Source of the DNA: Armatimonadota bacterium
GTDB taxonomy: Bacteria > Armatimonadota > Fimbriimonadia > Fimbriimonadales > Fimbriimonadaceae
Length of the DNA: 64,000 bases
Reading direction: 5' to 3'
NCBI GenBank assembly: GCA_016789105.1
Contig: JAEURN010000007.1
Location: 62,001 to 126,000, forward strand
In this document: one piece after another, positions 24,722-57,607 of the stretch
Position numbering within the stretch: the first letter of the stretch is position 1
How the letters are laid out: each line of letters begins with the position of its first letter
Translations under genes and position numbers: made by a program
The notes under the pieces: model-generated
Database searches by the model: none
Told to the model about the DNA's origin: nothing
What the model saw: only the letters and a program-made list of their open reading frames with translations

Positions 24722-26426
24722 CCGGTTTGGGCGCCGGGTTCGCCTGGCCAGGCTTTGGCGCGGCCTTTGGGGCGGGCTCCTCATTGGCGCGTGCCTGGCG
24801 TCGGTTCTGGTGGTCTTGGATGTGATGCGGGCCATCGAATTCCCGCCCAATTGGGGGATCGGATTGGCCGGCGCCTTCGCCTTGATCGGAGCCAGTGCGG
24901 GGTTTTTGTGGCGGGTGGATGAGCTTGCGGTGGCCCGCAGTGTCGACCGCCGCGCCGGTCTGGAAGACCGCGCTTCTACCGCCATCCATAAAGAGGGGAG
25001 CGGCGAGCTTTTTGCCCCCGCTTTGGAATCCGATGCGCAAAGCCGGTTAGCTGCAATACAACCCAAATCTGTTTATCCCTTGCGGTTTGGCACCCAGCAG
25101 GCCTCGGCGTGCCTGGCCCTGGCTTTGCTCGCTGTCGCCGTCACCGTCAACGACCGCGGCCTGCTGCTCAGCCCCTCTCAAAAGGCGGCCCAAAAGGAAC
25201 TCCAATCGACAGCCGCCCAAGTCCAACGGATCGTCAAAGATCTGGAAAGCGGCGATGGTGCCAAAGACAGGGAGGCCGAGCGCAAACTGGCGGCCGAACT
25301 CCGGAAATTCGGCCGAGATCTGGAACGAGGCAAATACGACCGGGAAGACGCCCTCCAACAGGCGGAAAAACTGGCCCAAGACGCCAAAAAACTCACCGAA
25401 CAGCGGTTGGAAAAGGCCGGCGAAAAAATGGAGCAGGTCACAGCCAAAGCGTTGCAAGAAAAGTTCGAGGAAGCCGGCGGCGACCTTGGCAAACTGGCCG
25501 ACCTCAAACTCGACACGATGGAACAGGAGCAGCTCCGTGACCTGATGCAAAAATCTGGGGCTGACCAACTCCCCAGCGACCAGATCGATGAGCAAACCCT
25601 GGCCAAATTGGGGGCCGACAACACCGCCAGCCAAATGATGAGGATGTCCGAAGCCCAAAAGCAAAAGCTGGCCCAAGAAATGGCCAAAGCCCAACAAGAC
25701 ATCCAACAAAAGCTCGAGCAAGGCAACCTGAGCCAAGAAGAAAGGCAAAAACTGGAACAGCAGGCCAAGACCATGCAAGAACTCATGAAGAAAATGGAGC
25801 TCTCAGACGATGTCAAAAAGGCGTTGCAAGAACTTCAGAACATGAAGGAGTACAAGGAAATGCAAGAGCTGATGCAAAAAATGCAGCAGGCCCAGCAACA
25901 AATGGAACAGGGCAAACCCCTTTCCGATGAGCAAATTGCCGAAATGCAAAAGCAAGCCGAACAGCTTGCGGAAATGATGAAGGATCCGCAAGCCAAAGCC
26001 GCCATGAAGCAGGCGATTTCCGAAATGGTCGAGCAACTGAAGCAGGGCAATGTCGATATGAAATCAATGCAACAAATGATGGCGGCCATGGGGATGGATC
26101 CCGGCGACCAAACCGGAGGGAACAACCAGGGTGGCAGCTATCAAGGGGAAGGTGAGAACCCGAAAGGCGACCCCATGGAACTGGAGGGCAAAGGCAACAT
26201 CACCGCCGTCCGGGGAGAGCGAAACGAACAGAAAGGCACCGACGCCTACACCGAAATCAAAGCCCCGACCATGGTGGGCAGCAGGACCAGCGTCCCCTAT
26301 GGCCAGGTCTTGCCGGGATACCGCAAAACCGCCGAATCCGCAGTGAACAACAATAAGGTCAAAGGGAAACACAAAGAGCGGGTCAAGGAGTATTTCGAAC
26401 AGCTTTCGGGAGGCAAAGGCAAATGA
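24696..26426 (+). CDS. Membrane-anchored Gln/Met/Lys-rich coiled-coil protein
   Basis: This 576-aa protein starts at ATG 24696. Two membrane segments lie near the N-terminus (about 22-45 and 50-68) with a third at about 135-155. Residues about 165-480 form an almost uninterrupted coiled coil rich in Q, M, K and E (KMQQAQQQMEQGKPLSDEQI is typical). The C-terminus has a conserved-looking ending (VPYGQVLPGYRKTAE, then KERVKEYFEQLSGGK). Proteins of this build sit beside MoxR-DUF58-VWA genes in several bacterial phyla and have no known function. It overlaps the permease by 26 nt and moxR by ATGA. It could act as a membrane scaffold for the MoxR/VWA complex. Confidence 0.65.
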   Translation: MNSLHRQLDRFGRRVRLARLWRGLWGGLLIGACLASVLVVLDVMRAIEFPPNWGIGLAGAFALIGASAGFLWRVDELAVARSVDRRAGLEDRASTAIHKEGSGELFAPALESDAQSRLAAIQPKSVYPLRFGTQQASACLALALLAVAVTVNDRGLLLSPSQKAAQKELQSTAAQVQRIVKDLESGDGAKDREAERKLAAELRKFGRDLERGKYDREDALQQAEKLAQDAKKLTEQRLEKAGEKMEQVTAKALQEKFEEAGGDLGKLADLKLDTMEQEQLRDLMQKSGADQLPSDQIDEQTLAKLGADNTASQMMRMSEAQKQKLAQEMAKAQQDIQQKLEQGNLSQEERQKLEQQAKTMQELMKKMELSDDVKKALQELQNMKEYKEMQELMQKMQQAQQQMEQGKPLSDEQIAEMQKQAEQLAEMMKDPQAKAAMKQAISEMVEQLKQGNVDMKSMQQMMAAMGMDPGDQTGGNNQGGSYQGEGENPKGDPMELEGKGNITAVRGERNEQKGTDAYTEIKAPTMVGSRTSVPYGQVLPGYRKTAESAVNNNKVKGKHKERVKEYFEQLSGGKGK

Positions 26427-27415
26427 GTGGACTCGAATCGGCGGAGTGGTTCCGCAAAACATGGGCCGGGATCCGGTCGGAAATCGGCAAGGCTGTCGTT
26501 GGCCAAGATGACGTCGTCGAGGGCGTGTTGGTCGCTTTGGCGGCCAACGGCCATGTGCTGTTGGAAGGCATGCCCGGGCTTGGGAAAACCTTGCTAATCC
26601 GGAGCCTGAGCCAGGCGGTCGATCTTGATTTCTCACGGATCCAATTCACCCCGGACATGATGCCGGCCGACGTCACCGGCACAAACGTTTTTTCTCAATC
26701 GGGAGGGTTCGAGTTCCGGCCCGGGCCGATCTTCGCTCACTTTGTTTTGGCGGACGAAATCAACCGGGCGACGCCCAAAACCCAAAGCTCGCTGTTGGAG
26801 GCGATGCAAGAACGGCAAGTCACCGTTGGCGGGAAAGTCCACCATTTGGAGGAACCATTCATGGTGATGGCAACTCAAAACCCGGTGGAGCAGGAAGGAA
26901 CATACCCCTTGCCAGAAGCCCAGCTCGACCGCTTCTTCTTCAAACTGCTCGTGCCGACACCGAGCAAGTCCGTTTTGGCCGAAGTGGTCAACCGGACGAC
27001 CCAAGGTGAAATGGAGCCGATCACCATGGTTGCCTCTGCCGCAGACCTCATCCGGGCCCGCCAGGTGACGCGGGAGGTCGCAGTCGGGCCGGAAGTGCTG
27101 GATTATGCGCTTTCCGTGATCGTGGCCACCCATCCCGAGGGCGAAGGGGCAAGCGAGGTCGCCCGCAAATACGTCCGGTACGGGTCATCTCCCCGGGGTG
27201 CCCAGGCATTGGTGACCGCGGCCAAGGTCTATTCCATGTTGGAAGGCCGGTTCAATGTCAGTAAAGAAAGCATTCAAAAGGCAGCCAAGCCGGTGCTGCG
27301 GCACCGGATTATCTTGAACTATGAGGCCGAGGCCGACGGGATGGCGGCGGATGCAGTGATCGACAGCATCGTCGCCTCGGTCAACGCCGGAGACAAAGAC
27401 CCCATCCGAGTGTGA
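26423..27415 (+). CDS. MoxR-type AAA+ ATPase
   Basis: This 330-aa protein carries Walker A GMPGLGKT, Walker B VLADEINRA, and the MoxR signature TPKTQSSLLEAMQERQVTVGG. Sensor 1 MATQNPVEQEGTYPLPEAQ and the arginine-finger region DRFFFKLLVP follow. The C-terminal lid is helical. MoxR proteins act as chaperones that remodel or load cofactors into VWA-protein complexes. Here it is coupled by 4-nt overlaps to the coiled-coil gene upstream (ATGA) and the DUF58 gene downstream (GTGA). Confidence 0.95.
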   Translation: MSGLESAEWFRKTWAGIRSEIGKAVVGQDDVVEGVLVALAANGHVLLEGMPGLGKTLLIRSLSQAVDLDFSRIQFTPDMMPADVTGTNVFSQSGGFEFRPGPIFAHFVLADEINRATPKTQSSLLEAMQERQVTVGGKVHHLEEPFMVMATQNPVEQEGTYPLPEAQLDRFFFKLLVPTPSKSVLAEVVNRTTQGEMEPITMVASAADLIRARQVTREVAVGPEVLDYALSVIVATHPEGEGASEVARKYVRYGSSPRGAQALVTAAKVYSMLEGRFNVSKESIQKAAKPVLRHRIILNYEAEADGMAADAVIDSIVASVNAGDKDPIRV

Positions 27416-28299
27416 GCCTTTCCGCCCCGAGCCCGCACCTGGACACCCGCGACGTGCGGGTGCTGGAACGGTTGCGCCTCAAACCCCGCAAGGCATTCTC
27501 GGGCCGGGTGCGTGGCGAAAGGCTGGCGCGGGAAAAGGGTGTTTCGCTCGAATTCAAAGACTACCGGGAGTACAGCGACGGCGACGACCTGCGCCACATC
27601 GATTGGAATGTGCTGGCCCGCTTGGGTACCCCGATCGTCAAAACCTACCAAGACGAAGAAGACCTCCCGGTCACCCTTTTGGTGGATGCTTCTGAGAGCA
27701 TGGATTTCGGCGAGCCCAACAAGTTCGGCACAGCCTGCCAGTTGGCCGCGGCTTTCGGAGTCGTGGCGGCGCGAGGAGGGGATTCCGTTCAGGGGGTCGC
27801 CCTTGCTGACACGCCGAACCGCACCCGATTCTTGCGGGGACGACGGGGAACCATTTCTTTAACCTCTTGGTTGGAATCCTTGCGCCCGAACGGCAAGCGG
27901 GCGCTGGCGTTCCATTTGAAGCAGGCAGCCCGGCACATGTCGCGGCCCGGATTGGCCATCCTTATCACCGATGGGATGGATCCATCGCTCGCCCAAGCAT
28001 TTGCCCACGTCACGGTGGCGGGGCACGAACTCTGGGTCGTCCAAGTCCTTTCGCCATTCGAGCTCGACCCGGGCATTGAAGGCGACCTGAGGATGATCGA
28101 CGCCGAAACTAACCAAGTGGTGGAGATCACGGCCAACGGGCCAACCCTTGACGCTTACCGGCGGAACTTGGCCAACCACAATTCTGCCATCGAACAAGCG
28201 GCACTAAAGCACGGCGGCCGATATGCCCTGATCGAATCTGGCAAGCCCCTGGCAGAGGTTTTCGGCAAAACCTTCCAAAAGGCCGGGTGGGTCGGGTGA
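27412..28299 (+). CDS. DUF58 protein (VWA-like fold)
   Basis: This 295-aa protein starts with GTG. The DUF58 hallmark is present: FKDYREYSDGDDLRHIDWNV, then ARLGTPIVKTYQDEEDLPVT. It is followed by LLVDASESMDFG, which keeps a MIDAS-like DxSxS and marks a VWA-like fold. DUF58 proteins almost always accompany MoxR and are thought to be its clients. No membrane helix is evident, so it is cytoplasmic. Overlaps of 4 nt are seen on both sides. Confidence 0.92.
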   Translation: MSLSAPSPHLDTRDVRVLERLRLKPRKAFSGRVRGERLAREKGVSLEFKDYREYSDGDDLRHIDWNVLARLGTPIVKTYQDEEDLPVTLLVDASESMDFGEPNKFGTACQLAAAFGVVAARGGDSVQGVALADTPNRTRFLRGRRGTISLTSWLESLRPNGKRALAFHLKQAARHMSRPGLAILITDGMDPSLAQAFAHVTVAGHELWVVQVLSPFELDPGIEGDLRMIDAETNQVVEITANGPTLDAYRRNLANHNSAIEQAALKHGGRYALIESGKPLAEVFGKTFQKAGWVG

Positions 28300-30122
28300 G
28301 TTTCCAGGCGCCGTTTGCGCTGCTCTGGTTCCTACCGGTGGGCGGGTTCATCCTGGCCCTCTACCTACTCCGTTTGCGGCGCCGGGATTTCCGGGTTCCG
28401 GCCAGCTTCCTTTGGCCAGAACGGCAGGACGAAGTCCGGGCCAACTCGTTGTTTCAGCGGCTCAAGTTCAACTGGTTGTGGGTTTTGCAACTCTTGGCCC
28501 TCGCTTTTTTGGTTTTGGGTTTGGCGAGGTGGCAGGTCCGGCAGGAAAACGTCTCCGGCCTCACGACGGTTCTCATCGTCGATGCCAGTGCCAGCATGGG
28601 CGCGAGGGATGTCGCCCCAGACCGTTTTGGCGTAGCCGTCAAGCGGGCCGAGTCACTGGTCGCCGCGATGAAGCCCGGCGACCGAATGGCTGTCATCGAA
28701 TCCGGAGCATCCCCCCGCGTGGCCACCGGGCTTAGCCAGGATCAAGCCAAGCTCCGGCAAGGGTTGGGCAGCCTCCGCCGGAGCGACGCCCCCAGCGACG
28801 TCGGCGAGGCATTGAGGCTGGCGATGGCATTGGTCGGCCGGGATGGTGAATCCCGGATCATCCTGCTCAGCGACGGTTGTTTCGATCCCGTCGGTTCCGT
28901 CAGCCGGGGCAAATCGCAGATCATTTTCGAGCCGTTCGGGACCTCGTCGGAGAATTTGGGCATCCAGGCGTTAGGTACGGCGGAAACACCGCAGGGCCTC
29001 CAAGCTTATGTCGGGGTCAAAAACTATGGGCGCGCGCAAGCCTCCACTTCCATTACGGTCTATGCCGATGGCAAAGCGGTGTCCTCGCACAGGGCAGATA
29101 TTGCCCCGGGCCAAACCATCGGCAAAACGGTGAGTCTGCCACCAGGAACCGAGCGGGTCTCGGCCAAGCTCGGCCAGGGAGGGGCACTGGCTTGCGACGA
29201 CCAACGCACCGTGCCCGGGAACCCAACCGGGTCGGTCAAAGTGTTGCTGGTCAGCAAGGGGAACCTGTTCCTGGAAACCGGCTTGAACCTGGATGCCCGG
29301 GTTGTCCTTGATAAAGCGACTCAAGTGCCCGCCTCCGAACTGGCGTCCAGCCCCGGACAAGGAGCGTATGATCTGGTGGTCTTCGACAGCGAACCGGAAA
29401 TCGCGGTGAAGGCCCCGATGACGGTTTCTTTCGGCAAAGGCGGGGGCGCGTCTCCGGCAGAGGTCGGCGGAAAGTTGCCGACTCCCCAAGTCCTCTCCGT
29501 CCGGGACGACGGGCTCATGGACGGTGTTTCGTTTGATGGCGTTTACTTGGCCTCGGTTTACGCTGCCAAGCCACGAGCCGGGGCGCAAGCACTGGCCGAA
29601 GCGGCAAGCGGCCCCATCGCCGTGTTCCGCGCCACACCCAAGATCCAAGCCTATTTTGCATTTGACTTGTTGGATGGGGATTTCCCGCTTTCGGTCAGCT
29701 TCCCAATCCTCCTCGGGAACATCCTGGATAAGGCCGCGGGGTCAGAGCGGCAAGGCTTGACGGCAATTGCGACCGGCCAAGTGGTGGGGTTGCCCGGCAA
29801 GGACGGGGAATCTGTCGATGTGAAAGATCCGACAGGCGAGGTCAGCCAGACGACTGCCCTGAACGGCCGGTTCACCTTCCGGAACCTGGATCGGGTTGGC
29901 GAATATGCGGTTGGATCGGGTACTGCCGCCAAGAGGTACCTGGCCAACATGGTCGCGGAACGGGAATCCGATATCGCTCCGGTCAAGGAGTTTGCCATCG
30001 CCGGCGGCGAGCCGGTCAAATCCAAACCCGCCGAGCAGTTCGCCGACCTCTGGAAGCCGCTTGTCGCCCTCATGATGGGGGTGCTCGCCCTGGAATGGTT
30101 TGTTTTCATGAGGCGGTCATGA
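28296..30122 (+). CDS. BatA-type membrane protein with VWA domain
   Basis: I place the start at GTG 28296 (a GTGA overlap with DUF58), giving MSFQAPFALLWFLPVGG, the standard BatA N-terminal helix. A GTG three codons upstream is possible. The length is 608 aa. A basic cytoplasmic segment (LRLRRRDFRVPASFLWP) follows the first helix, a second helix lies at about 60-78, and a VWA domain has MIDAS VDASASMGARD (DxSxS). The rest is periplasmic beta-rich sequence, with a final helix near the C-terminus (LMMGVLALEWFVFM). It probably forms a complex with the 918-aa VWA protein under MoxR control. Confidence 0.85.
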   Translation: MSFQAPFALLWFLPVGGFILALYLLRLRRRDFRVPASFLWPERQDEVRANSLFQRLKFNWLWVLQLLALAFLVLGLARWQVRQENVSGLTTVLIVDASASMGARDVAPDRFGVAVKRAESLVAAMKPGDRMAVIESGASPRVATGLSQDQAKLRQGLGSLRRSDAPSDVGEALRLAMALVGRDGESRIILLSDGCFDPVGSVSRGKSQIIFEPFGTSSENLGIQALGTAETPQGLQAYVGVKNYGRAQASTSITVYADGKAVSSHRADIAPGQTIGKTVSLPPGTERVSAKLGQGGALACDDQRTVPGNPTGSVKVLLVSKGNLFLETGLNLDARVVLDKATQVPASELASSPGQGAYDLVVFDSEPEIAVKAPMTVSFGKGGGASPAEVGGKLPTPQVLSVRDDGLMDGVSFDGVYLASVYAAKPRAGAQALAEAASGPIAVFRATPKIQAYFAFDLLDGDFPLSVSFPILLGNILDKAAGSERQGLTAIATGQVVGLPGKDGESVDVKDPTGEVSQTTALNGRFTFRNLDRVGEYAVGSGTAAKRYLANMVAERESDIAPVKEFAIAGGEPVKSKPAEQFADLWKPLVALMMGVLALEWFVFMRRS

Positions 30123-30123
30123 A

Positions 30124-32880
30124 ATGAGGTTCACAGATCCGGTCTGGGGACTGCTGTTCATCCCGCTTGCCGTCGGGTTGGCCCTCAGCTGGCACCGGGT
30201 TCATGGGATGGCCAAGGCGCGCAAAGCGGTTTCATTCGGGCTCCGGTTCCTCCTCCTCGGTTCATTGATCGGGGCCCTGATGGGTCCCCAAGGTGTCCAG
30301 CCGGATCGCGGGACGACAACGATTTTTGTGTTGGATCGGTCGGACAGCATCTCCGAGCGTGACCGAAAGGCGCAAGTTGAATTCGTTGAAGGTGCCATGG
30401 GCAGCCTGGGGGAAGACGACAAAGTCGGCATCGTCGCATTCGGCAAATCTCCGGCGATGGAAGCCTCGCCAGGCGGGCGCAGGCCCTTTGGAGCCGTCGA
30501 GTCGGTTGTCGACGCCTCGGCAAGCGACATCGCCTCGGCGTTGCGGTTGGCCATGGCCAGCTTTCCCAGCGGCAAGGGCCGGCGCATTGTTTTGGTCAGC
30601 GACGGCAATGAAACAAAAGGGGATGCCCTGGGTGCCGTCGAAAGCATTGCCGCCGAAGGGGTTGCCATCGATTTCGTCCCGCTCGGGCTTTCAAAAGGCA
30701 AGGACGAGGCTGCCGTGACCGACCTCCAAGCACCTAGCGAGCAATCCGCTGAACAGCCTTTTGAAATCAAAGCCGTCGTCGAGTCCACAATAGCCCAGAC
30801 GGGGCAATTGGTGATCGAAAGGAACGGGGAACCAGTTTCGCAAACCAAAGTCAGCATCCCCGCCGGCACCTCAACCATCGTCATCCCCCAAAATCTTGCC
30901 GAGGCGGGCTTTTACCGTTACCGCGCCTATTTGAAGGTCCCCAACGACAGCGACAACCGAAACAACCTCGGCGCGGCCTTCGTATCGGTCAAAGGGCGGC
31001 CCAAAGTTTTGTTGGCCCAAGGTGACACCGGCAAATTGGAACTTGCCACCGCGCTCAGCCAGCAAGGGATCTCGGTGCAGGTCGCTGGTCCAAGTGGCGT
31101 GCCGACCAGGCCAGAGGATTTCCAGCAATACGATGCGGTCATCTTGAACGACCTGAATGCGGCCAACACGACCGAGCCGCAAATGAAAATGATCCGGAAC
31201 GCCATCCGCGATTCCGGGGTCGGGTTTATGATGGTGGGGGGGGAGGACAGCTTTTTGCCCGGCGGTTGGTATGGCACGCCGGTGGCGGAGGCGTTGCCGG
31301 TCGACCTCAACATCCGCCAGCGAAAGGTTTTCCCCAGCACGGCCGTGCTCATCGTCGTCGACACCAGCGGCAGCATGTCGATGAGCATCGGGGGAATGAC
31401 GAAACTGCAATTGGCGGCGAGCGCAGCAGTCCTCAGTGCCAACCTGCTGGGGCCGACAGACCGGCTCGGTGTGGCCGGCAGCGGGAGCCGTATCGATTAC
31501 GTCGCGCCGATCGCCGAGCTTAAAGAAAAAGACGCCGTGATCGCCAAAATTAGGACCCTGAAAGATGGCGGTGGCGGGATCTTTGCCGAGCCCTCAGTGA
31601 GATTTGCCAGTGAAAAGCTGGCGGCAGAGAACACCCGGGTAAAGCACTTCATCTTGGTCGCCGACGGCAGTGATTGCGATGCCCACGGTTCGAGCCTTGC
31701 CATTGCCGCGGCCATGAAGGCCGCCAAGACAACTGTCTCAACCATTGCCATCGGCGATGGCAAAGATGTCGACTTCCTGAAAGGGGTCGCTGCCGTTGGG
31801 GGTGGTCGATTCTATTTGGTGGAGGATGCCAAGAAACTCCCGCAAATCTTCACCCAGGATGTCAGCCTGATGTCGCGGTCGGCAATTGAAGAAGGGGCGT
31901 TTTTGCCCAAAGTCTTGGGTGTGGACGATTCGACCAGGGGGATCGATGGGTTTCCCGCCTTGATGGCCTACTGCCTCACCGATGCGCGCCCCTTGGCGCG
32001 GGTATCGATGAAGACCCAGAAGGACGACCCCTTGCTCGCCAGTTGGCAGTTCGGACTCGGCAAATCAACGGCGTTCACCAGCGATGCGCAGAACCGGTGG
32101 GCAAAGGAATGGATCGGCTGGGAAGGCTACGGAAAATTCTGGGCCCAAACCGTCCGAGCCCTCACCCGACGCGCCGCCCTCAACAACTATGACCTCCAAG
32201 TGACGCCGGAGGGCGGGCGCGGCAAGATCTCGCTGGCCGCCCGCGACCGGGCCGGCAACCCGTTGCCAATGGGGACGATCGACGTCAGGATCAGCAATCC
32301 CGATGGAAGTTCCCAAAAGGCAACGCTGACGCAAGAAGCCCCCGGCGTCTTTTCTGGCGATTTTGAGGCGAGCGAGGTCGGCAGCTACATCGTTAGCGTC
32401 GTCGAACCCAGCGCAACCGGCCAAGCTCGCGTCGCCTCCAACGGGTTTTCGATCCCGTATCCTCCGGAATACCGGAGCTCCCGCGCCAACCTGCCCCTGT
32501 TGGAAGGGGTTGCCGGCCAAACCGGCGGCAAAAAGCTCACCGCGCCAAAAGAGGCCATGCGGCCCCTGGCGCACCGGGGCGAAAGCGTCACCGACCTTTG
32601 GCGGATGTTCCTCTTTGCCGCTTTGGCGCTCCTCCCTCTCGACGTTCTCGTCCGCAGGGTCGTGGTGCCTCTCCCCCGGTTTGAGCGGCATTCGCCCGAG
32701 CCCATCTCGCCTACCAAACGGGCTTCAACCAGCCCAACGCCCGGCACCCCCGTGGTACCGAAATCGAAGAGCCTGGACCGGGCCCGGAAAAAGGATCGGC
32801 CCGATGCGCCGATCTCGGCCGCCGGAAGTTTGCTCGCCGCAAAGAAAAAACGGAAGGACGGCGACTCTAAAGACCCGTAA
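30124..32880 (+). CDS. Large membrane protein with two VWA domains and a glutamine-amidotransferase-like domain
   Basis: This 918-aa protein has two N-terminal helices (about 8-22, 38-55). The first VWA domain has MIDAS VLDRSDSIS and SDGNETKGD. An Ig-like segment follows, then a GATase1-like domain (YDAVILNDLNAAN, GFMMVGGEDSFLPGGWYG) without a visible catalytic Cys. The second VWA domain has MIDAS VVDTSGSMSMS. An Ig-like segment, a helix near 835 and a basic cytoplasmic tail follow. The GATase-plus-VWA arrangement is a known architecture in planctomycete-like bacteria. The large exposed part is predicted periplasmic. It is the last gene of the coupled run. Function unknown; a cell-envelope or surface-assembly role is inferred from MoxR and ABC neighbours. 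Confidence 0.85.
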   Translation: MRFTDPVWGLLFIPLAVGLALSWHRVHGMAKARKAVSFGLRFLLLGSLIGALMGPQGVQPDRGTTTIFVLDRSDSISERDRKAQVEFVEGAMGSLGEDDKVGIVAFGKSPAMEASPGGRRPFGAVESVVDASASDIASALRLAMASFPSGKGRRIVLVSDGNETKGDALGAVESIAAEGVAIDFVPLGLSKGKDEAAVTDLQAPSEQSAEQPFEIKAVVESTIAQTGQLVIERNGEPVSQTKVSIPAGTSTIVIPQNLAEAGFYRYRAYLKVPNDSDNRNNLGAAFVSVKGRPKVLLAQGDTGKLELATALSQQGISVQVAGPSGVPTRPEDFQQYDAVILNDLNAANTTEPQMKMIRNAIRDSGVGFMMVGGEDSFLPGGWYGTPVAEALPVDLNIRQRKVFPSTAVLIVVDTSGSMSMSIGGMTKLQLAASAAVLSANLLGPTDRLGVAGSGSRIDYVAPIAELKEKDAVIAKIRTLKDGGGGIFAEPSVRFASEKLAAENTRVKHFILVADGSDCDAHGSSLAIAAAMKAAKTTVSTIAIGDGKDVDFLKGVAAVGGGRFYLVEDAKKLPQIFTQDVSLMSRSAIEEGAFLPKVLGVDDSTRGIDGFPALMAYCLTDARPLARVSMKTQKDDPLLASWQFGLGKSTAFTSDAQNRWAKEWIGWEGYGKFWAQTVRALTRRAALNNYDLQVTPEGGRGKISLAARDRAGNPLPMGTIDVRISNPDGSSQKATLTQEAPGVFSGDFEASEVGSYIVSVVEPSATGQARVASNGFSIPYPPEYRSSRANLPLLEGVAGQTGGKKLTAPKEAMRPLAHRGESVTDLWRMFLFAALALLPLDVLVRRVVVPLPRFERHSPEPISPTKRASTSPTPGTPVVPKSKSLDRARKKDRPDAPISAAGSLLAAKKKRKDGDSKDP

Positions 32881-32927: not shown

Positions 32928-34487
32928 ATGGCGGCACGGAAGAAGAAGGAACCGGAAACGGTGGTTTCCCAGCAAGAACCGGTTGTGGTTCCGGCTGAGA
33001 TGTTGGCGCAATTGATGGCGCAGATCCAAACCCTGGCCCAGGAGGTTGGGGATCTTCGTGCGCAGGCGGCAAAGGGCAGCCCGGCCAACAACCCCACAGA
33101 TCCGCCCACACACAATGCGGCACCTGCCGACCTGACGCCACTCGGCGAGGTCACCCAAGAGGAGATCGACTCTGCCGTCGCCTCACCGGAAGTGATGCCC
33201 GAAGGATTCTTTGCTGAAGAGATCACCGAGGAGCCGGTCGACCGGGAAACAGAAGTTGTCGACTTGGAGGCGCTAGAAGAACAATGCCCGGGATTGTTGG
33301 AGGATATCGAAGCTTACAACGGCAGTTCGGCATCGGATGACGAGGAGGTTTCGGCTGAAGAAGCAGCTGCCCTCTTGCAAGGGTTTGACGCGGCCATGGC
33401 TGACGACGGGCTCGGCAGTGAACCAGAGGTTTTCGCGTTAGGCGAAGATTCCCAAGCGGCAAGCGACCTTTCGCCAGATGATATCGCGGCCCTGTTCGCG
33501 CAAGCGGAGTCCTCTTCCCAGAACCCCGCCTCCGCCCAGCCGCAAACCCCGGAAGCAGACGAAGCCCGTGCCGACCTTTCTGCCGATGACATCGCGGCCT
33601 TGTTCGCGCAAGCGGAGTCGGGACAGTCCGCCGGATCGACAGAACCAGATTTGACCGGCCAAGGCATGGATGGGGTCGATTCTCCCACCCATGCCCCATC
33701 GGGAGAGGTGGAGGAACCGGTCGTCGCCAGCCTGACCGACGAGGAAATCGCCATGCAGGTCGCACAAGGCGCAGGGGCAGATTTGGCAGAAGAGGACGAT
33801 TTTGACCTGGACGAACTCGGTGAAGAGGGACTGGCCGCCTTAGTCCGTCAAAGCATCGAAGCCCAAGCCGAAGAGCGGGCCCTGGCTGAACAATCCGCCC
33901 CGGACGTCGAAGAGGAAACCGGTGCATCGGAAGGCGACTTGATGTCGGCGGCGGAGATTGCGGCCCTGCTCAACACCCCGGACGACGACTCCGATTCAAT
34001 TCCTGCTTCCTCGACGGCGATGAGCGACGAGGAACTCCGGGCCTTGCTGGCCGAGGCAACGGCGGACTCGAGCGAGCCGATTCCCGAGCCCGACGACCTT
34101 CCGGATCAAGAGCCGGACCAAGCCGCGAGCTCGAAGCCAGCAGCCAATGTCAAGAAGCCAACGGGCACCCCAGAACTCGGCGCGGTCAGGGCGGTGCCGG
34201 CCCACTTCGCCGTCCGAGCATTGGCACTCCCCATCCGCTTTGAAGATGGCAAGCTTGTTTGCCAGGTTGCCGAACCGGTAGACCAAGCGGCATTGGACCG
34301 CTTGAGCCAAGCAGCTGGGTTCGGGTTGATCATTGAAAAGGCGCCCATCGATTCAGTTGTCCAGGGCATCCGGGAAGCCTATGCCGAAATCCAAGACACC
34401 CATGCTCGGTTTGCCGTCATGGCCAATTCCCAAAACCGTCCCGGGCTGATGGAAAAAATCGCCGCTATGTGGAAGAAATCCGCATAG
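32928..34487 (+). CDS. Acidic multi-motif protein: EIDALL-like array plus C-terminal GspE N-terminal-type domain
   Basis: This 519-aa protein opens with a basic start (MAARKKKEPE) and a short coiled coil (20-46). A long acidic disordered region (60-415) contains repeated short motifs resembling the FliM/FliN N-terminal peptide LSQDEIDALL: at 75-84, 141-152, 181-194 (LSPDDIAALFAQAE), 217-230 (LSADDIAALFAQAE), 269-280, 297-308, 339-350 (MSAAEIAALLNT) and 365-377 (MSDEELRALLAEA). Residues 420-487 form a folded domain like the second half of the type II secretion/T4P ATPase N-terminal domain (VAEPVDQAALDRLSQAAGF, then a terminal IREAY). The extreme C-terminus is an amphipathic helix (LMEKIAAMWKKSA). 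The MinD/FlhG-like gene follows after 3 nt. I know of no named family; see findings. Confidence 0.75.
   Translation: MAARKKKEPETVVSQQEPVVVPAEMLAQLMAQIQTLAQEVGDLRAQAAKGSPANNPTDPPTHNAAPADLTPLGEVTQEEIDSAVASPEVMPEGFFAEEITEEPVDRETEVVDLEALEEQCPGLLEDIEAYNGSSASDDEEVSAEEAAALLQGFDAAMADDGLGSEPEVFALGEDSQAASDLSPDDIAALFAQAESSSQNPASAQPQTPEADEARADLSADDIAALFAQAESGQSAGSTEPDLTGQGMDGVDSPTHAPSGEVEEPVVASLTDEEIAMQVAQGAGADLAEEDDFDLDELGEEGLAALVRQSIEAQAEERALAEQSAPDVEEETGASEGDLMSAAEIAALLNTPDDDSDSIPASSTAMSDEELRALLAEATADSSEPIPEPDDLPDQEPDQAASSKPAANVKKPTGTPELGAVRAVPAHFAVRALALPIRFEDGKLVCQVAEPVDQAALDRLSQAAGFGLIIEKAPIDSVVQGIREAYAEIQDTHARFAVMANSQNRPGLMEKIAAMWKKSA
33465..33619 (+). repeat. Direct DNA repeat encoding two DDIAALFAQAE motifs
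   Basis: Bases 33465-33511 and 33573-33619 agree at about 42 of 47 positions at a 108-bp period. This indicates a recent internal duplication that added motif copies. Confidence 0.8.
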
Positions 34488-34490
34488 GGT

Positions 34491-35309
34491 ATGAAAGTCG
34501 TTGCGGTCGTGAGCGGGAAGGGTGGCGTCGGGAAATCGGCGTTGGCCTGCAGCATGGCGGGGATCATTGCCCGCGACGGCAAAAAGTGCCTGCTCTTTGA
34601 CGCCAACATCGGACTTCCCAATTGCGATCTGTATTGCGGCGTGGAGCCGGGATGCACCCTCGGGCACATCGTTCGGGACAACCGCGACCTCCGGGATGCC
34701 GTCGTTCCGTTGGCTTCGGGCGCTCATCTGATTTCCGGTGGCAGCGGCTGGAATGAATTGGCGGAACTGGGCCCCAAAGAGATTGAAGGGCTGGCCGTGG
34801 CCGCCTTGGAATTGGGGAAAGAATACGACCATATCATTTTGGATTGCGGCCCGGGGTTCGGTTCGCGAGTTGCCCCGTTCCTTTCCATCGCCGATGCCGT
34901 CCTTGTCGTGACCAGTGCCGACCCGGCCAGTTTGACCGACGCTTACGCCATGCTCAAGTTCGTCTGGGGGCACAACCCCAACGCAAACTCCGGGTTTGCC
35001 GTGAACTTTGCTCCGACAGCCGCCCAAGGGCGATCGGCGGCCGACCAATTCAAAATGGTGGTCGGTCAGTTTTTGAGCCGGGAAGCAGAACTTTGGGGGG
35101 TCATCCGGACCGACCCCCACGTCGCGCGGGCCTGCGCCGAACGCAAACCGTACGCCGAAGCCTTTCCCCTCGCCCCGGCCAGTCAAGACACCATCGATGT
35201 GGCCAACTGGGTCATGGGGATCAAAGCCGTTGATGAACCCGAAACTTCGATGCTCGAAAGGCTCAAGAGCGCCTTCGGCAAAAAACAGGAGTCGCAAGAA
35301 GCGGCTTAA
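34491..35309 (+). CDS. FlhG/MinD-like P-loop ATPase
   Basis: This 272-aa protein begins MKVVAVVSGKGGVGKSALA, the deviant Walker A with signature Lys10. FDANIGLPNCDLYCGV takes the place of the usual DADLGLANLD, so the second Asp is Asn39. LDCGPGFGSRV (Asp118) is the next motif, and TSADPASLTDAYAMLK follows, as in FlhG. The C-terminus (MLERLKSAFGKK) is an amphipathic helix like the MinD membrane-targeting sequence. Such ATPases position or count machines at the membrane. It starts 3 nt after the EIDALL-array gene and surely works with it. The Asp to Asn change may slow ATP hydrolysis. Its TAA overlaps the opposing PAS gene stop by 3 nt. Confidence 0.88.
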   Translation: MKVVAVVSGKGGVGKSALACSMAGIIARDGKKCLLFDANIGLPNCDLYCGVEPGCTLGHIVRDNRDLRDAVVPLASGAHLISGGSGWNELAELGPKEIEGLAVAALELGKEYDHIILDCGPGFGSRVAPFLSIADAVLVVTSADPASLTDAYAMLKFVWGHNPNANSGFAVNFAPTAAQGRSAADQFKMVVGQFLSREAELWGVIRTDPHVARACAERKPYAEAFPLAPASQDTIDVANWVMGIKAVDEPETSMLERLKSAFGKKQESQEAA

Positions 35310-35872
35310 TCTCCGGGGATTTCAAACTCGGGCAGAACGCCCAATGTGTTAAGGGCGCCAACCACCAGGCCATCGCGATCCTTGATGGGGCTGGCGTGCC
35401 ACTTGACCGTCCGTTTGCGCCCTTCGACAAAGAGGTCGATGGCGATAGGGGCGGGGTGCAACCCCATGAACACCATATAGATCATCCCTTCGGCATCGTT
35501 CCTAAAGATGCCGGTGCCGAGAATCTCGGTGATCGGGCGGTCGACCGCTTCGTGTTCGGGCCGGAAGAAGAATGCCTCGCAGGCCCGGTTCCATTCCATG
35601 ACGTGCCCGCGTCCGTCGACGGTGAAACACGGCAGGGGCAGTTCGTAAAACGTCGTTTGAAATCGGGTCAGCGTCGCGTTTTGGACGCCCTTGAACTGGC
35701 TGAGTTCGGTCTTGAGGGCTTCGTTCTCCCGTTCCAATTCCTCGATTCGTGGGTTTACGGCCAGGGGCAGGTGAGAATCCGCCCGGGCGCGCTTGGCCCG
35801 TCCAAAAAACGGGATGGCTGAGGCAAGCGCCGCAACCGGCCAAACGCCCAGGATCCCGCTCCAGTCCATCAT
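35306..35872 (-). CDS. Membrane-anchored PAS-domain protein without output domain
   Basis: This 188-aa protein starts at 35872; the much longer open frame upstream is antisense to glpX. It has an N-terminal hydrophobic segment (about 5-22), a basic stretch (RAKRARAD), and a coiled coil (IEELERENEALKTELSQF, about 43-60). A PAS domain follows at about 70-180 (LPLPCFTVDGRGHVMEWNRA, then ITEILGTGIF and WHASPIKDRDG). No kinase, GGDEF or cyclase domain follows, so it must signal by protein contact. It is convergent with the MinD-like gene (stop codons overlap) and divergent from glpX. Confidence 0.8.
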   Translation of the reverse strand: MMDWSGILGVWPVAALASAIPFFGRAKRARADSHLPLAVNPRIEELERENEALKTELSQFKGVQNATLTRFQTTFYELPLPCFTVDGRGHVMEWNRACEAFFFRPEHEAVDRPITEILGTGIFRNDAEGMIYMVFMGLHPAPIAIDLFVEGRKRTVKWHASPIKDRDGLVVGALNTLGVLPEFEIPGD

Positions 35873-36013
35873 TACTACAAATCGTTGGCCACTCCCCGCA
35901 AAAAGAACAGGTCTGCAGTGCAGGAGTTCTGCAATATGGCATACCGATTGCCTCAGCCAGTTGGCATGGCGATTTTGCCCCAAAAGGCTAAACTGCACAC
36001 CGTGGAGGTCAAT

Positions 36014-55133: not shown

Positions 55134-55892
55134 TTAAGCTGATTGCTTGAGGGTTTGATCCCCGAATTGCCGCACTGATTGGGCCAGGGCTCGGACATCC
55201 TGGGCCGCCTTGCACCCGGCGTTGGCAACCACGTAGAGCTCACGCTTCCGGGTGGCCAATGCCGCGGCTTGGTCGAATCGGACCGAGCCGAGGTAACCAA
55301 CCCGCTTTTTGAGGTACTGCCAACAAATTTTTTCGAACATTGCAAACAGCTTTGCCCCCTCGTGCGGGCTTGCCATGTTGAACACCACGTGGACGCGGGC
55401 ATCCGGTTTGCGGCGGAACAATGTTTTCGCCGTCGCATAGGCATCGGTGATGCTGGTGGGGTCGGGGCTTGCGACCAAGATGATGTCGTCGGCGAACTTT
55501 AAGAAGTGCAGCACGCGGTTATCCAACCCGGCGGCACAATCGAACAAAAGGGTGTCGGTGGTTTTGGCTAGGGCCCCAAACTGTTCAAAGAACAGGGCCA
55601 GCTTTTTGGGCCCGGCCCGCATCAGCAACGGAACCGCCGATGCGCCGGTGATGGCCTTGAACCCGCCCGGTGCCTCGACCAGCACATCGGAGAGTGTTTT
55701 TTCCCCGGCAACCACATGTTGGAGGTTGAACTCGGGTGAGACACCCAGGACGATGTCCAAATTGGCAAGTTGCAAATCAGCGTCGAAAACCGTGGTGCGC
55801 GCCCCGGTTTCGGCAAGTGCGGCGGCAAGGTTGGCAGAAAACGAGGTCTTTCCAACCCCGCCTTTGCCGCTGGTGATCGCGATGGTCGTCAT
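55134..55892 (-). CDS. FlhG/MinD-like P-loop ATPase (second copy)
   Basis: From ATG 55892 the protein is 252 aa: MTTIAITSGKGGVGKTSFSA is the deviant Walker A, VFDADLQLANLDIVLGVS keeps both Asp residues, and LLFDCAAGLDNRVLHFLKFA is the FlhG-like third motif. PDPTSITDAYATAK matches the ATPase at 34.5 kb. No clear membrane-targeting helix is seen at the C-terminus. It starts 4 nt after the MshEN-type gene stop, so they are one operon. It should be active in ATP hydrolysis, in contrast to its paralogue with Asn39. Confidence 0.9.
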   Translation of the reverse strand: MTTIAITSGKGGVGKTSFSANLAAALAETGARTTVFDADLQLANLDIVLGVSPEFNLQHVVAGEKTLSDVLVEAPGGFKAITGASAVPLLMRAGPKKLALFFEQFGALAKTTDTLLFDCAAGLDNRVLHFLKFADDIILVASPDPTSITDAYATAKTLFRRKPDARVHVVFNMASPHEGAKLFAMFEKICWQYLKKRVGYLGSVRFDQAAALATRKRELYVVANAGCKAAQDVRALAQSVRQFGDQTLKQSA

Positions 55893-55896
55893 GGCT

Positions 55897-56541
55897 TTAC
55901 ACGGCCTCCGAGAAGGCATCCCAGAGCGAGTCGGTTCCAGTACCGGAAATGGCGGCCAACAAATCTTGGCGATCTGGCTGGCCGTGGACCTTGGGTTTGC
56001 GCGGCGCGGGTGCCCGCTTTGACTTGGCCGACTTTGCCGGCACAGGTTCATTGGTTTTTTGAGATTCAATCTGGGCGACCAACTCCTCGCTGGATTTGGT
56101 CACCGACATGGGCATTGAATAGCTCCGGGCGATGGCTTCAAAAATCTCTTGCGGGCCGGCGATGAATATGACCAGGCGCTTGCCAATGGCTTTGGAGAGG
56201 TAGTCGGTGCCTTCGATGTCGAGTGGGTCGCAAATCGCACAGTGGAATTCGGTTGGGCTGACCGAAAGCGGAAGGATCAGCCGGCTAAGGGCGAACGTCG
56301 GGCTGACCAGGCGTAAGGCCGCCTCGGACGGGTTCACCTCGCTTAGATCGCAAACGGGCAAGTCATATTGGCGGGCAAGGCAATCGACGATCACCCGTTC
56401 GGGGACAAACCCGAGGGTGATCAACACCTCTCCGAACCGCTGCTTGGATTCCTGTTGGATCCGCAGCGCTTCGTCCCGCTGTTCGATGGTGATGATCTTA
56501 TTTTCGACCAGCCAGTCTCCGACTCGTTGATACCGACTCAT
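55897..56541 (-). CDS. MshEN/GspE N-terminal-domain protein, candidate c-di-GMP sensor
   Basis: From ATG 56541 the protein is 214 aa. Residues 6-58 contain the two-fold MshEN repeat: RVGDWLVENKIITIEQRDEA with following Leu (R-x-G-x2-L ... A-L), then FGEVLITLGFVPERVIVDCL followed by ARQ. This closely follows the RLGxxL...LxxALxxQ pattern of c-di-GMP-binding MshE-type domains. Residues 70-141 continue the GspE N-terminal fold (CDPLDIEGTDYLSK, IFEAIARSY). No ATPase domain follows; the remaining 70 residues are a disordered basic/Pro-rich tail ending LLAAISGTGTDSLWDAFSEA. It is upstream of the MinD-like ATPase. c-di-GMP binding is likely but untested. Confidence 0.8.
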   Translation of the reverse strand: MSRYQRVGDWLVENKIITIEQRDEALRIQQESKQRFGEVLITLGFVPERVIVDCLARQYDLPVCDLSEVNPSEAALRLVSPTFALSRLILPLSVSPTEFHCAICDPLDIEGTDYLSKAIGKRLVIFIAGPQEIFEAIARSYSMPMSVTKSSEELVAQIESQKTNEPVPAKSAKSKRAPAPRKPKVHGQPDRQDLLAAISGTGTDSLWDAFSEAV

Positions 56542-56699
56542 GGTATGTGCCCACAGGAAAGAGGGTTTAGCCGTGCTTTTGCCGCTCTCCAGCAAAAATC
56601 ATCGGCTTTTCCACCCCAAAACCTCACATGGCGGATCCAATTTTCAATCAGCTTGCCCAATGCCGCCAACATGCACACCTTGGAGGCGTTTGCCACTCG

Positions 56700-57530
56700 C
56701 TAGGCGGCCAGCAACCCCGGTTGGGCCAACGCCGACTTGAGGAGTCCGGAGACTTCGCCTTCTTCAATCGGGAGTGCTGTCTTGTTCAGGGGGACCGGCC
56801 AATCCCCCAGGCCGAATCGGCCCGCTTCGGCGACCGCCTTGGCCGTGGTCAGGCAGGCTTGGCCGACATCTTGGGAATCGACGGGGAGGCTGGAAGCCGA
56901 AACCGTCTGGACGAACATCGCCGGCAATCCCAGGGTGGCGGCCGCTTGGGGCGCGAGGTGGGCAATCGGGATCCCGTAGTGCTCCTCAAAGAGCCAATCC
57001 ACGGTCGAGCCATTTGACCGAGCTTCCAAATAGATCTGGTCGTAAGTGGTGCCATCCACGTAGCTCAACAAGCCGAACATGACATTGTGGAGCGTCCCGG
57101 CCGCCAACAACTCCTCTTGGTTCCACGGGCTTTTGACAACTCTTTCCCGAGCAAGCGAAGCGGCGAGATTGGCAACGGCATTGCCATTTTGGGCAAACCG
57201 CAGGGGGGTCAGGTGTTGGCTCTTGCCCCGGATTTGCCCCAAGGCGTTCGTCCAGCAGGCAATGGCGAGGGCGCGCAACGAACGATGCCCCAACACGGCA
57301 ACCGCTTCTCGGACTGTGGTCACCGGTTTTGCCCGGGCAAAAAGGGCACTGTTGGCGCTTTTGATGAGGCCGGCGGTCAAAGCCGGGTCGGCCAGGATCA
57401 GGCTTTCGATCTGAGAAGGGTTCGGGTCGCCTGATTCAATCAGCTGGGCCAGCTTCAAAGGGGTGTCAGGCAACTGCGGCAAGGTTTCCGCGTGGCCCAA
57501 CGTAAACATCAATTCATCCAGTGACAGCAT
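56700..57530 (-). CDS. HDOD-domain protein
   Basis: The start is taken as ATG 57530 (TTG 57578 and ATG 57509 are alternatives), giving 276 aa. LPQLPDTPLKLAQLIESG, LADPALTAGLIKSANSAL and TVREAVAVLGHRSLRALAIA are the HDOD landmarks. In a classical HD domain a His-Asp pair would follow; none is seen. HDOD proteins act as non-catalytic signalling or scaffold modules, frequently near pili, motility or c-di-GMP genes. It lies 158 nt upstream (in transcription order) of the MshEN-MinD pair on the same strand. Confidence 0.88.
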   Translation of the reverse strand: MLSLDELMFTLGHAETLPQLPDTPLKLAQLIESGDPNPSQIESLILADPALTAGLIKSANSALFARAKPVTTVREAVAVLGHRSLRALAIACWTNALGQIRGKSQHLTPLRFAQNGNAVANLAASLARERVVKSPWNQEELLAAGTLHNVMFGLLSYVDGTTYDQIYLEARSNGSTVDWLFEEHYGIPIAHLAPQAAATLGLPAMFVQTVSASSLPVDSQDVGQACLTTAKAVAEAGRFGLGDWPVPLNKTALPIEEGEVSGLLKSALAQPGLLAA

Positions 57531-57607
57531 GGAACCCAACCAACGGCATTGATCCGCATCGGCTGGGTTTTGAGCCAAGGTTCCTTGCCAGGTTTTTTGC
57601 AGAGCAA

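Follow-up and report, generated by a model that had tools for sequence, protein, structure and literature searches.

Results

The array gene and its neighborhood

The window analyzed here is a 64,000-nucleotide stretch of the genome of an Armatimonadota bacterium (family Fimbriimonadaceae); features lie on the forward strand unless stated otherwise. At 32928..34487 it carries an open reading frame for a 519-aa protein, referred to as the array protein (TAG stop at 34485-34487), and after a gap of 3 nt follows the gene of a 272-aa FlhG-like ATPase of the MinD type (34491..35309, ATG at 34491). These coordinates and the gap are as given in the original prediction. The gene pair is kept in all eight genomes of the genus. 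Immediately upstream of the array gene, in conserved synteny, are genes for MoxR, DUF58, a BatA-like VWA protein and a second VWA protein (26423..32880). Downstream, the gene of a coiled-coil/PAS protein (35306..35893, reverse strand) is convergent to the ATPase gene and adjoins the pair throughout the genus, in which the order MoxR-DUF58-VWA-VWA-array-ATPase-PAS-glpX is retained. The four upstream genes run in the same direction as the array gene and stop 47 bp before it, and possibly form one operon with it. The coiled-coil/PAS neighbor in one genome (G001) likely has membrane segments. Prepilin-like N_methyl proteins are also encoded in the window. Flagellar Pfam families were absent from the approximately 50 larger open reading frames of the window that were scanned, and to that extent the earlier statement that the window has no flagellar gene holds.

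Architecture and motifs of the array protein

The array protein is composed of a basic start, a coiled coil, an acidic disordered region with FliM-like motifs, a half-MshEN domain and a C-terminal amphipathic helix. Its short basic N-terminus, MAARKKK (32928..32948), resembles the N-terminal extensions by which partner proteins activate ATPases (PMC7993993). The first 30 residues are net basic in six of nine array-type proteins, which are otherwise strongly acidic (net charge +4 to +8 in six relatives, -1 in two and 0 in the array protein studied here). AlphaFold2 predicts a helix or coiled coil at residues 23-49 (32994..33074), a folded domain at approximately residues 408-487, a terminal amphipathic helix at residues 507-518 (34446..34481) that may act as a membrane anchor, and a short isolated helix on each motif copy, the rest being disordered. 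The acidic middle region consists of 24% D+E and 18% A.

The FliM-like motif [LM]S..[DE]I.AL[LF] is present in four strict copies, or five if matched loosely. The strict copies are LSPDDIAALF (residues 181-190, 33468..33497), LSADDIAALF (residues 217-226, 33576..33605), MSAAEIAALL (residues 339-348, 33942..33971), which is the best match to FliM, and MSDEELRALL (residues 365-374, 34020..34049); the loose copy is VTQEEIDSAV (residues 75-84, 33150..33179). Three further copies are degenerate, namely VSAEEAAALL (residues 141-150, 33348..33377), LTDEEIAMQV (residues 269-278, 33732..33761) and LGEEGLAALV (residues 297-306, 33816..33845, inside a helix at 299-322). The original prediction counted about eight motifs; there are indeed eight sites, each on a predicted helix, but only four to five of them are good.

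In 1000 composition shuffles of the protein the mean number of copies was 0.00 (strict) and 0.02 (loose), with a maximum of 1. A FliM profile was made from 18 distinct N-termini of the order's FliM proteins and from nothing else. Scanned against 665 proteins, array proteins included, it placed windows of array proteins at ranks 1, 2, 3, 5 and 6 among 224,576. In the genome as a whole (2.75 Mb), 12 occurrences of the core [DE]I[DEA]A[LF][LF] were counted, compared with 0 in the reversed control. A convincing LSxxEIxALL in a disordered context was found only in FliM (one copy) and in the array protein (three copies), the remaining genomic copies of the core lying inside enzymes or in doubtful frames. 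The array motifs are without the conserved Q of FliM at position 3 and mostly without its acidic residue at position 7. Peptides of the LSxxEIDALL type that marks FliM and FliN are thus present in several copies, internally and not at the N-terminus, and a Pfam scan detected neither the FliM core nor a SpoA domain in the array protein, MshEN being the sole domain found. The likeness to FliM and the multivalency proposed from the sequence are borne out by the shuffles, by the profile ranks and by the recurrence of the motifs in relatives.

Conservation of the motif array

By direct reading, arrays of one to six motif copies were found in 18 genomes from eight Fimbriimonadaceae genera (eight genomes of g1, two each of g5, g16 and g17, and one each of g2, g4, g8 and g11). 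Conservation among orthologues, on which the original prediction had been staked, is therefore seen well beyond the genus. Conservation within the genus is higher for motif columns than for linker columns (0.68 versus 0.50, p=7e-9). The number of copies differs between arrays, and some copies arose by recent duplication (G005). One homologue has no motif (G029); FliM is undetected in its genome, FlhA is present and the genome is 72% complete, so this homologue says little. Four genomes (G014, G023, G262 and G274) retain motifs next to an ATPase that is degenerate or has diverged strongly; in one of them the Walker A motif reads GKGGVGQS (G014), and in another the usual switch region is missing (G262). 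The motifs may therefore not serve the ATPase alone. In another genome (G006, L042, contig C1, about 2224818-2226592) the repeat region of the array gene is spread over several frames, through a genuine frameshift or an error in the assembly.

The half-MshEN domain and related gene pairs

Residues 408-487 (34149..34388) correspond to the C-terminal subdomain of MshEN only, with no RLGxxL c-di-GMP motif. The match to PF05157 (MshEN/GspE-N; 1.1e-6) spans only profile positions 18-68 of 90, and in structure comparison residues 409-485 align with residues 65-145 of MshE (Z 10.9, 2.0 Å over 77 residues). The fusion to a GspE N-terminal-type domain described in the original prediction is thus genuine, but just the C-terminal half of MshEN is there. 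The c-di-GMP site of MshEN is its N-terminal 53-residue part, which has two RLG motifs (PMC5013675). The two RLGxx(L/V/I)2xxG...LxxxLxxQ motifs are absent from the MshEN region of the array protein, and because they are missing we rejected binding of c-di-GMP by this protein.

The GspE-N-type domain is not specific to pili here, since the family pairs it with, or fuses it to, MinD/FlhG-type ATPases. Elsewhere in the order, in other genera and families, the gene for the ATPase is preceded by that of a full-MshEN protein, which is either short or equipped with a kinase-like domain. The window itself has a second pair on the reverse strand, consisting of a full-MshEN partner with the tail motif DRQDLLAAI (55897..56595) and an ATPase of the short-type clade (55134..55892); an HDOD gene (56700-57578) lies beside it. 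Several genomes encode a fusion of the half-MshEN domain with a MinD-type ATPase; in G000, G003, G004, G005 and G006 the fusion gene is near flagellin. On contig C6 of G000 (about 16.1-19.6 kb; L209 6140-9580) genes for a cNMP-binding protein, the fusion and flagellin stand in a row.

G019, G038, G040, G044 and G050 have a divergent DivIVA-like gene in convergent orientation beside their kinase-type pair. This arrangement beside the MshEN-kinase-MinD pair (L046, L049, L051, L150 and L151), spread over three families, recalls FlhG-GpsB of Bacillus. Nearly all full-MshEN partners of the order have a conserved tail motif, DRxxLLx[AS][ILV]. We considered this tail as an ancestral, single-copy form of the array motif; tail windows are mostly weak against the FliM profile and several were scored out of register, so homology is not claimed.

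The ATPase is probably derived from FlhG

As predicted from the sequence, the ATPase resembles FlhG. A phmmer search of PDB sequences returned FleN (1.4e-33) and Geobacillus FlhG (2e-30) ahead of archaeal MinD (1e-16) and Escherichia coli MinD (8e-10), and structure comparison gave Z 34.1 for FleN/FlhG and 30.7 or less for MinD. The ATPase is without the DQAxxLR activator helix and starts at MKVVAVVSGKGG. Among homologues in other Armatimonadota classes this helix is found at 12 loci, three of them immediately after flhF. No protein of the genome matched FlhF over the cut-off of 174, the best matches (74 and 56 bits) resembling FtsY and Ffh. With no DQAxxLR helix and no FlhF, membership in FlhG proper was rejected. 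In the tree, the MshEN-associated ATPases group together (98/95) next to the DQAxxLR-bearing FlhGs; array-type ATPases are a subclade of this group (92/78), and kinase- and short-type ATPases make up the remainder. The array-linked ATPase is probably derived from FlhG, a descent that is likely and not proven because the tree has a midpoint root, does not resolve the FlhG rows and contains two long rows on the array side. The amphipathic C-terminus of the ATPase, SMLERLKSAFGKK (35247..35285), may be a membrane-targeting sequence like that of MinD.

FlhG binds the N-terminus of FliM/FliY, for which K177, R207 and F215 are required (PMC12826062, PMC12327844); in Geobacillus FlhG, R207E abolishes binding of FliY (PMC12327844, which gives the position of this arginine as 207 in one place and as 277 in another). 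To number the PDB chain we relied on how K177, R207 and F215 are spaced, so the contact sites named below are inferred positions. Among 11 array-type ATPases, those corresponding to K177 and F215 are kept in all 11, and the position of R207 is E in five, R in three, Q in two and K in one. The evidence for a FlhG-like pocket is therefore mixed, with two of the three mapped contact residues kept and the third often reversed in charge. AlphaFold2 was also run on the array protein and ATPase as a single read-through chain (the TAG read as Q, a modeling device). No motif helix reached clearly docked confidence in this result, which comprises confidence values without coordinates or contact scores. 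The motif helices rose slightly (for example from 69 to 79 in block 181-190), a rise expected from the larger alignment.

Flagellar genes in the genome and family

In many bacteria FlhG and FlhF set the number and place of flagella. The original prediction had asked for a check of the genome for fli genes, and they are present: it encodes FliM (with MSDILSQDEIEALL), FliN/Y, FliO, FliP and FliQ, together with flagellin, FlhA and CheA/CheW. The true FliM and FliN/Y are on another contig than the array pair. Complete flagellum biosynthesis has been reported for the congener Uphvl-Ar1 (PMC5629041). FliM was detected in 68 of 85 genomes of the family, including all 18 with arrays, and none of the 17 genomes without detected FliM has a known motif array. 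The hypergeometric p for this co-occurrence is about 0.01 by genome and 0.36 by genus, and given the latter value the co-occurrence speaks only weakly for a link with FliM.

Discussion

The array system is a variant of the known arrangement in which a MinD/ParA ATPase works with an adaptor. It shares with ParA/MinD ATPases and their activating adaptors (ParB, MinE, PomX, McdB, TlpT) an adjacent adaptor gene, a coiled coil, a disordered modular build and, in most array-type relatives, a basic start; unlike in those pairs, the adaptor here carries a FliM-like array and a half-MshEN domain, and activation of the ATPase is only putative. The closest match in sequence and structure is to FlhG/FleN (YlxH, MinD2) acting on the FliM/FliY peptide, with which the system has in common the ATPase fold, a clade adjoining true FlhG, the K177 and F215 positions of the FliY-binding site and the peptide core [LM]S..[DE]I.AL[LF]. 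It differs from FlhG/FleN in that the DQAxxLR helix is missing, FlhF was not found in the genome and R207 is not kept, and in that many peptides sit on a dedicated partner whereas FlhG/FleN meets one peptide on a C-ring protein. With the MshEN c-di-GMP receptors (the N-terminal domains of MshE, PilF, PilB and GspE) the array protein shares the fold of the C-terminal subdomain, but not the c-di-GMP-binding four-helix part. FlhG-GpsB of Bacillus subtilis (PMC12327844) likewise joins an FlhG-type ATPase to a polarity/division scaffold, comparable to the DivIVA-like gene beside the kinase-type pairs of relatives; unlike there, no DivIVA/GpsB gene is present at the array locus and none was detected in the genome.

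The combination of a motif array with an FlhG-like ATPase suggests a previously undescribed control of flagella or of another envelope machine, and multivalent docking linked to FlhG is plausible. The reading that we tentatively prefer, at somewhat less than an even chance, is that the array gene and the ATPase gene together encode an ATPase-adaptor system of FlhG descent, in which the array of FliM-mimic peptides competes with FliM. In such a scheme, the FlhG of Fimbriimonadaceae would have lost its FlhF partner together with the FlhF-activating helix and then become tied to proteins with an MshEN domain. The partner seen in this branch has no c-di-GMP-binding half and bears a disordered stretch of peptides resembling the FliM N-terminus. 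The array protein may be held at the membrane through its C-terminal helix and may self-associate via its coiled coil, and its peptides, for example MSAAEIAALLNTP and DLSADDIAALFAQAE, would dock and gather many ATPase molecules at once. Competition of these peptides with FliM for the same pocket on the ATPase could then set the location or number of flagellar switch complexes. It is possible, and to us rather doubtful, that Fimbriimonadaceae have exchanged FlhF-FlhG for a system independent of FlhF, in which a dedicated multivalent mimic of the FliM N-terminus governs an FlhG-derived ATPase; by buffering the pocket or competing for it, the mimic would set how many flagella form, or where.

The FliM peptide has apparently been put to a second use here, as a short linear motif in multivalent form. 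The pairing of this array with an FlhG-like ATPase also gives a defined, peptide-sized system in which to ask whether FlhF can be replaced by peptide competition. Halves of MshEN serve, in addition, as parts of MinD-type ATPase systems.

The pair could instead be a general ParA/MinD adaptor system whose likeness to FliM is convergent. The basic N-terminus would stimulate the ATPase, the half-MshEN domain and coiled coil would hold the complex, and the cargo of the acidic helices could be a type IV pilus, the MoxR-VWA machine (via MIDAS sites) or other array proteins through self-association. A net basic start, as in the six array-type proteins, is a hallmark of ATPase-activating partners (PMC7993993), but it is weak in the array protein itself. 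The conserved MoxR-DUF58-VWA-VWA genes immediately upstream, the DivIVA-like gene of five genomes and the fold shared with the GspE-N domains of pilus and secretion ATPases fit an adaptor of this kind. Since the motif matches FliM and not a generic amphipathic helix, and every motif-bearing genome is FliM-positive, we consider this explanation somewhat unlikely.

Phosphorylated CheY is the main rival ligand, because CheY binds the same peptide, the EIDAL motif of FliM (PMC6946799). The array would then be a multivalent sink or platform for CheY-P that links chemotaxis to the MinD-type ATPase, and the half-MshEN domain, fused to such ATPases elsewhere, would possibly make the contact with the ATPase. 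CheA/CheW genes in the genome and the persistence of motifs where the ATPase is degenerate are in keeping with this alternative, which we nevertheless judge unlikely: no chemotaxis gene was seen near the pair, Q3 of FliM and mostly its acidic residue 7 are missing from the motifs, and the ATPase is still FlhG-like with K177 and F215 kept.

The original prediction favored a platform through which the ATPase controls a pilus or secretion machine, flagella being uninvolved. MshEN domains are known from the ATPases of pili and type II secretion systems, and the prepilin-like proteins of the window could be seen in the same light. However, in the relatives whose surroundings were compared no pilus ATPase or assembly gene was seen beside the pair. 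The genome encodes a flagellar switch/export cluster as well as flagellin, FlhA and chemotaxis proteins, its congener reportedly makes a complete flagellum (PMC5629041), and a second half-MshEN/MinD-type ATPase gene of the genome adjoins flagellin. With no linked pilus gene seen, we rejected pilus control as the default reading and regard the platform as quite improbable. The least probable explanation, chance repeats of a low-complexity region rich in acidic residues and alanine with variable copy number and recent duplications, is strongly disfavored, chance being rejected as the source of the motifs on account of the shuffles (0.02 or fewer copies against four to five observed) and of conservation (motif columns above linkers, eight genera).

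A stretch resembling FliM also occurs in the ATPase, at residue 93 (LGPKEIEGLAVAA), in the helix that follows the SGGSG loop, and the G005 ATPase (L041 8847-9680) has one, LEGAEIDALVGDL, at the corresponding helix; these stretches may be a coincidence or an internal mimic.
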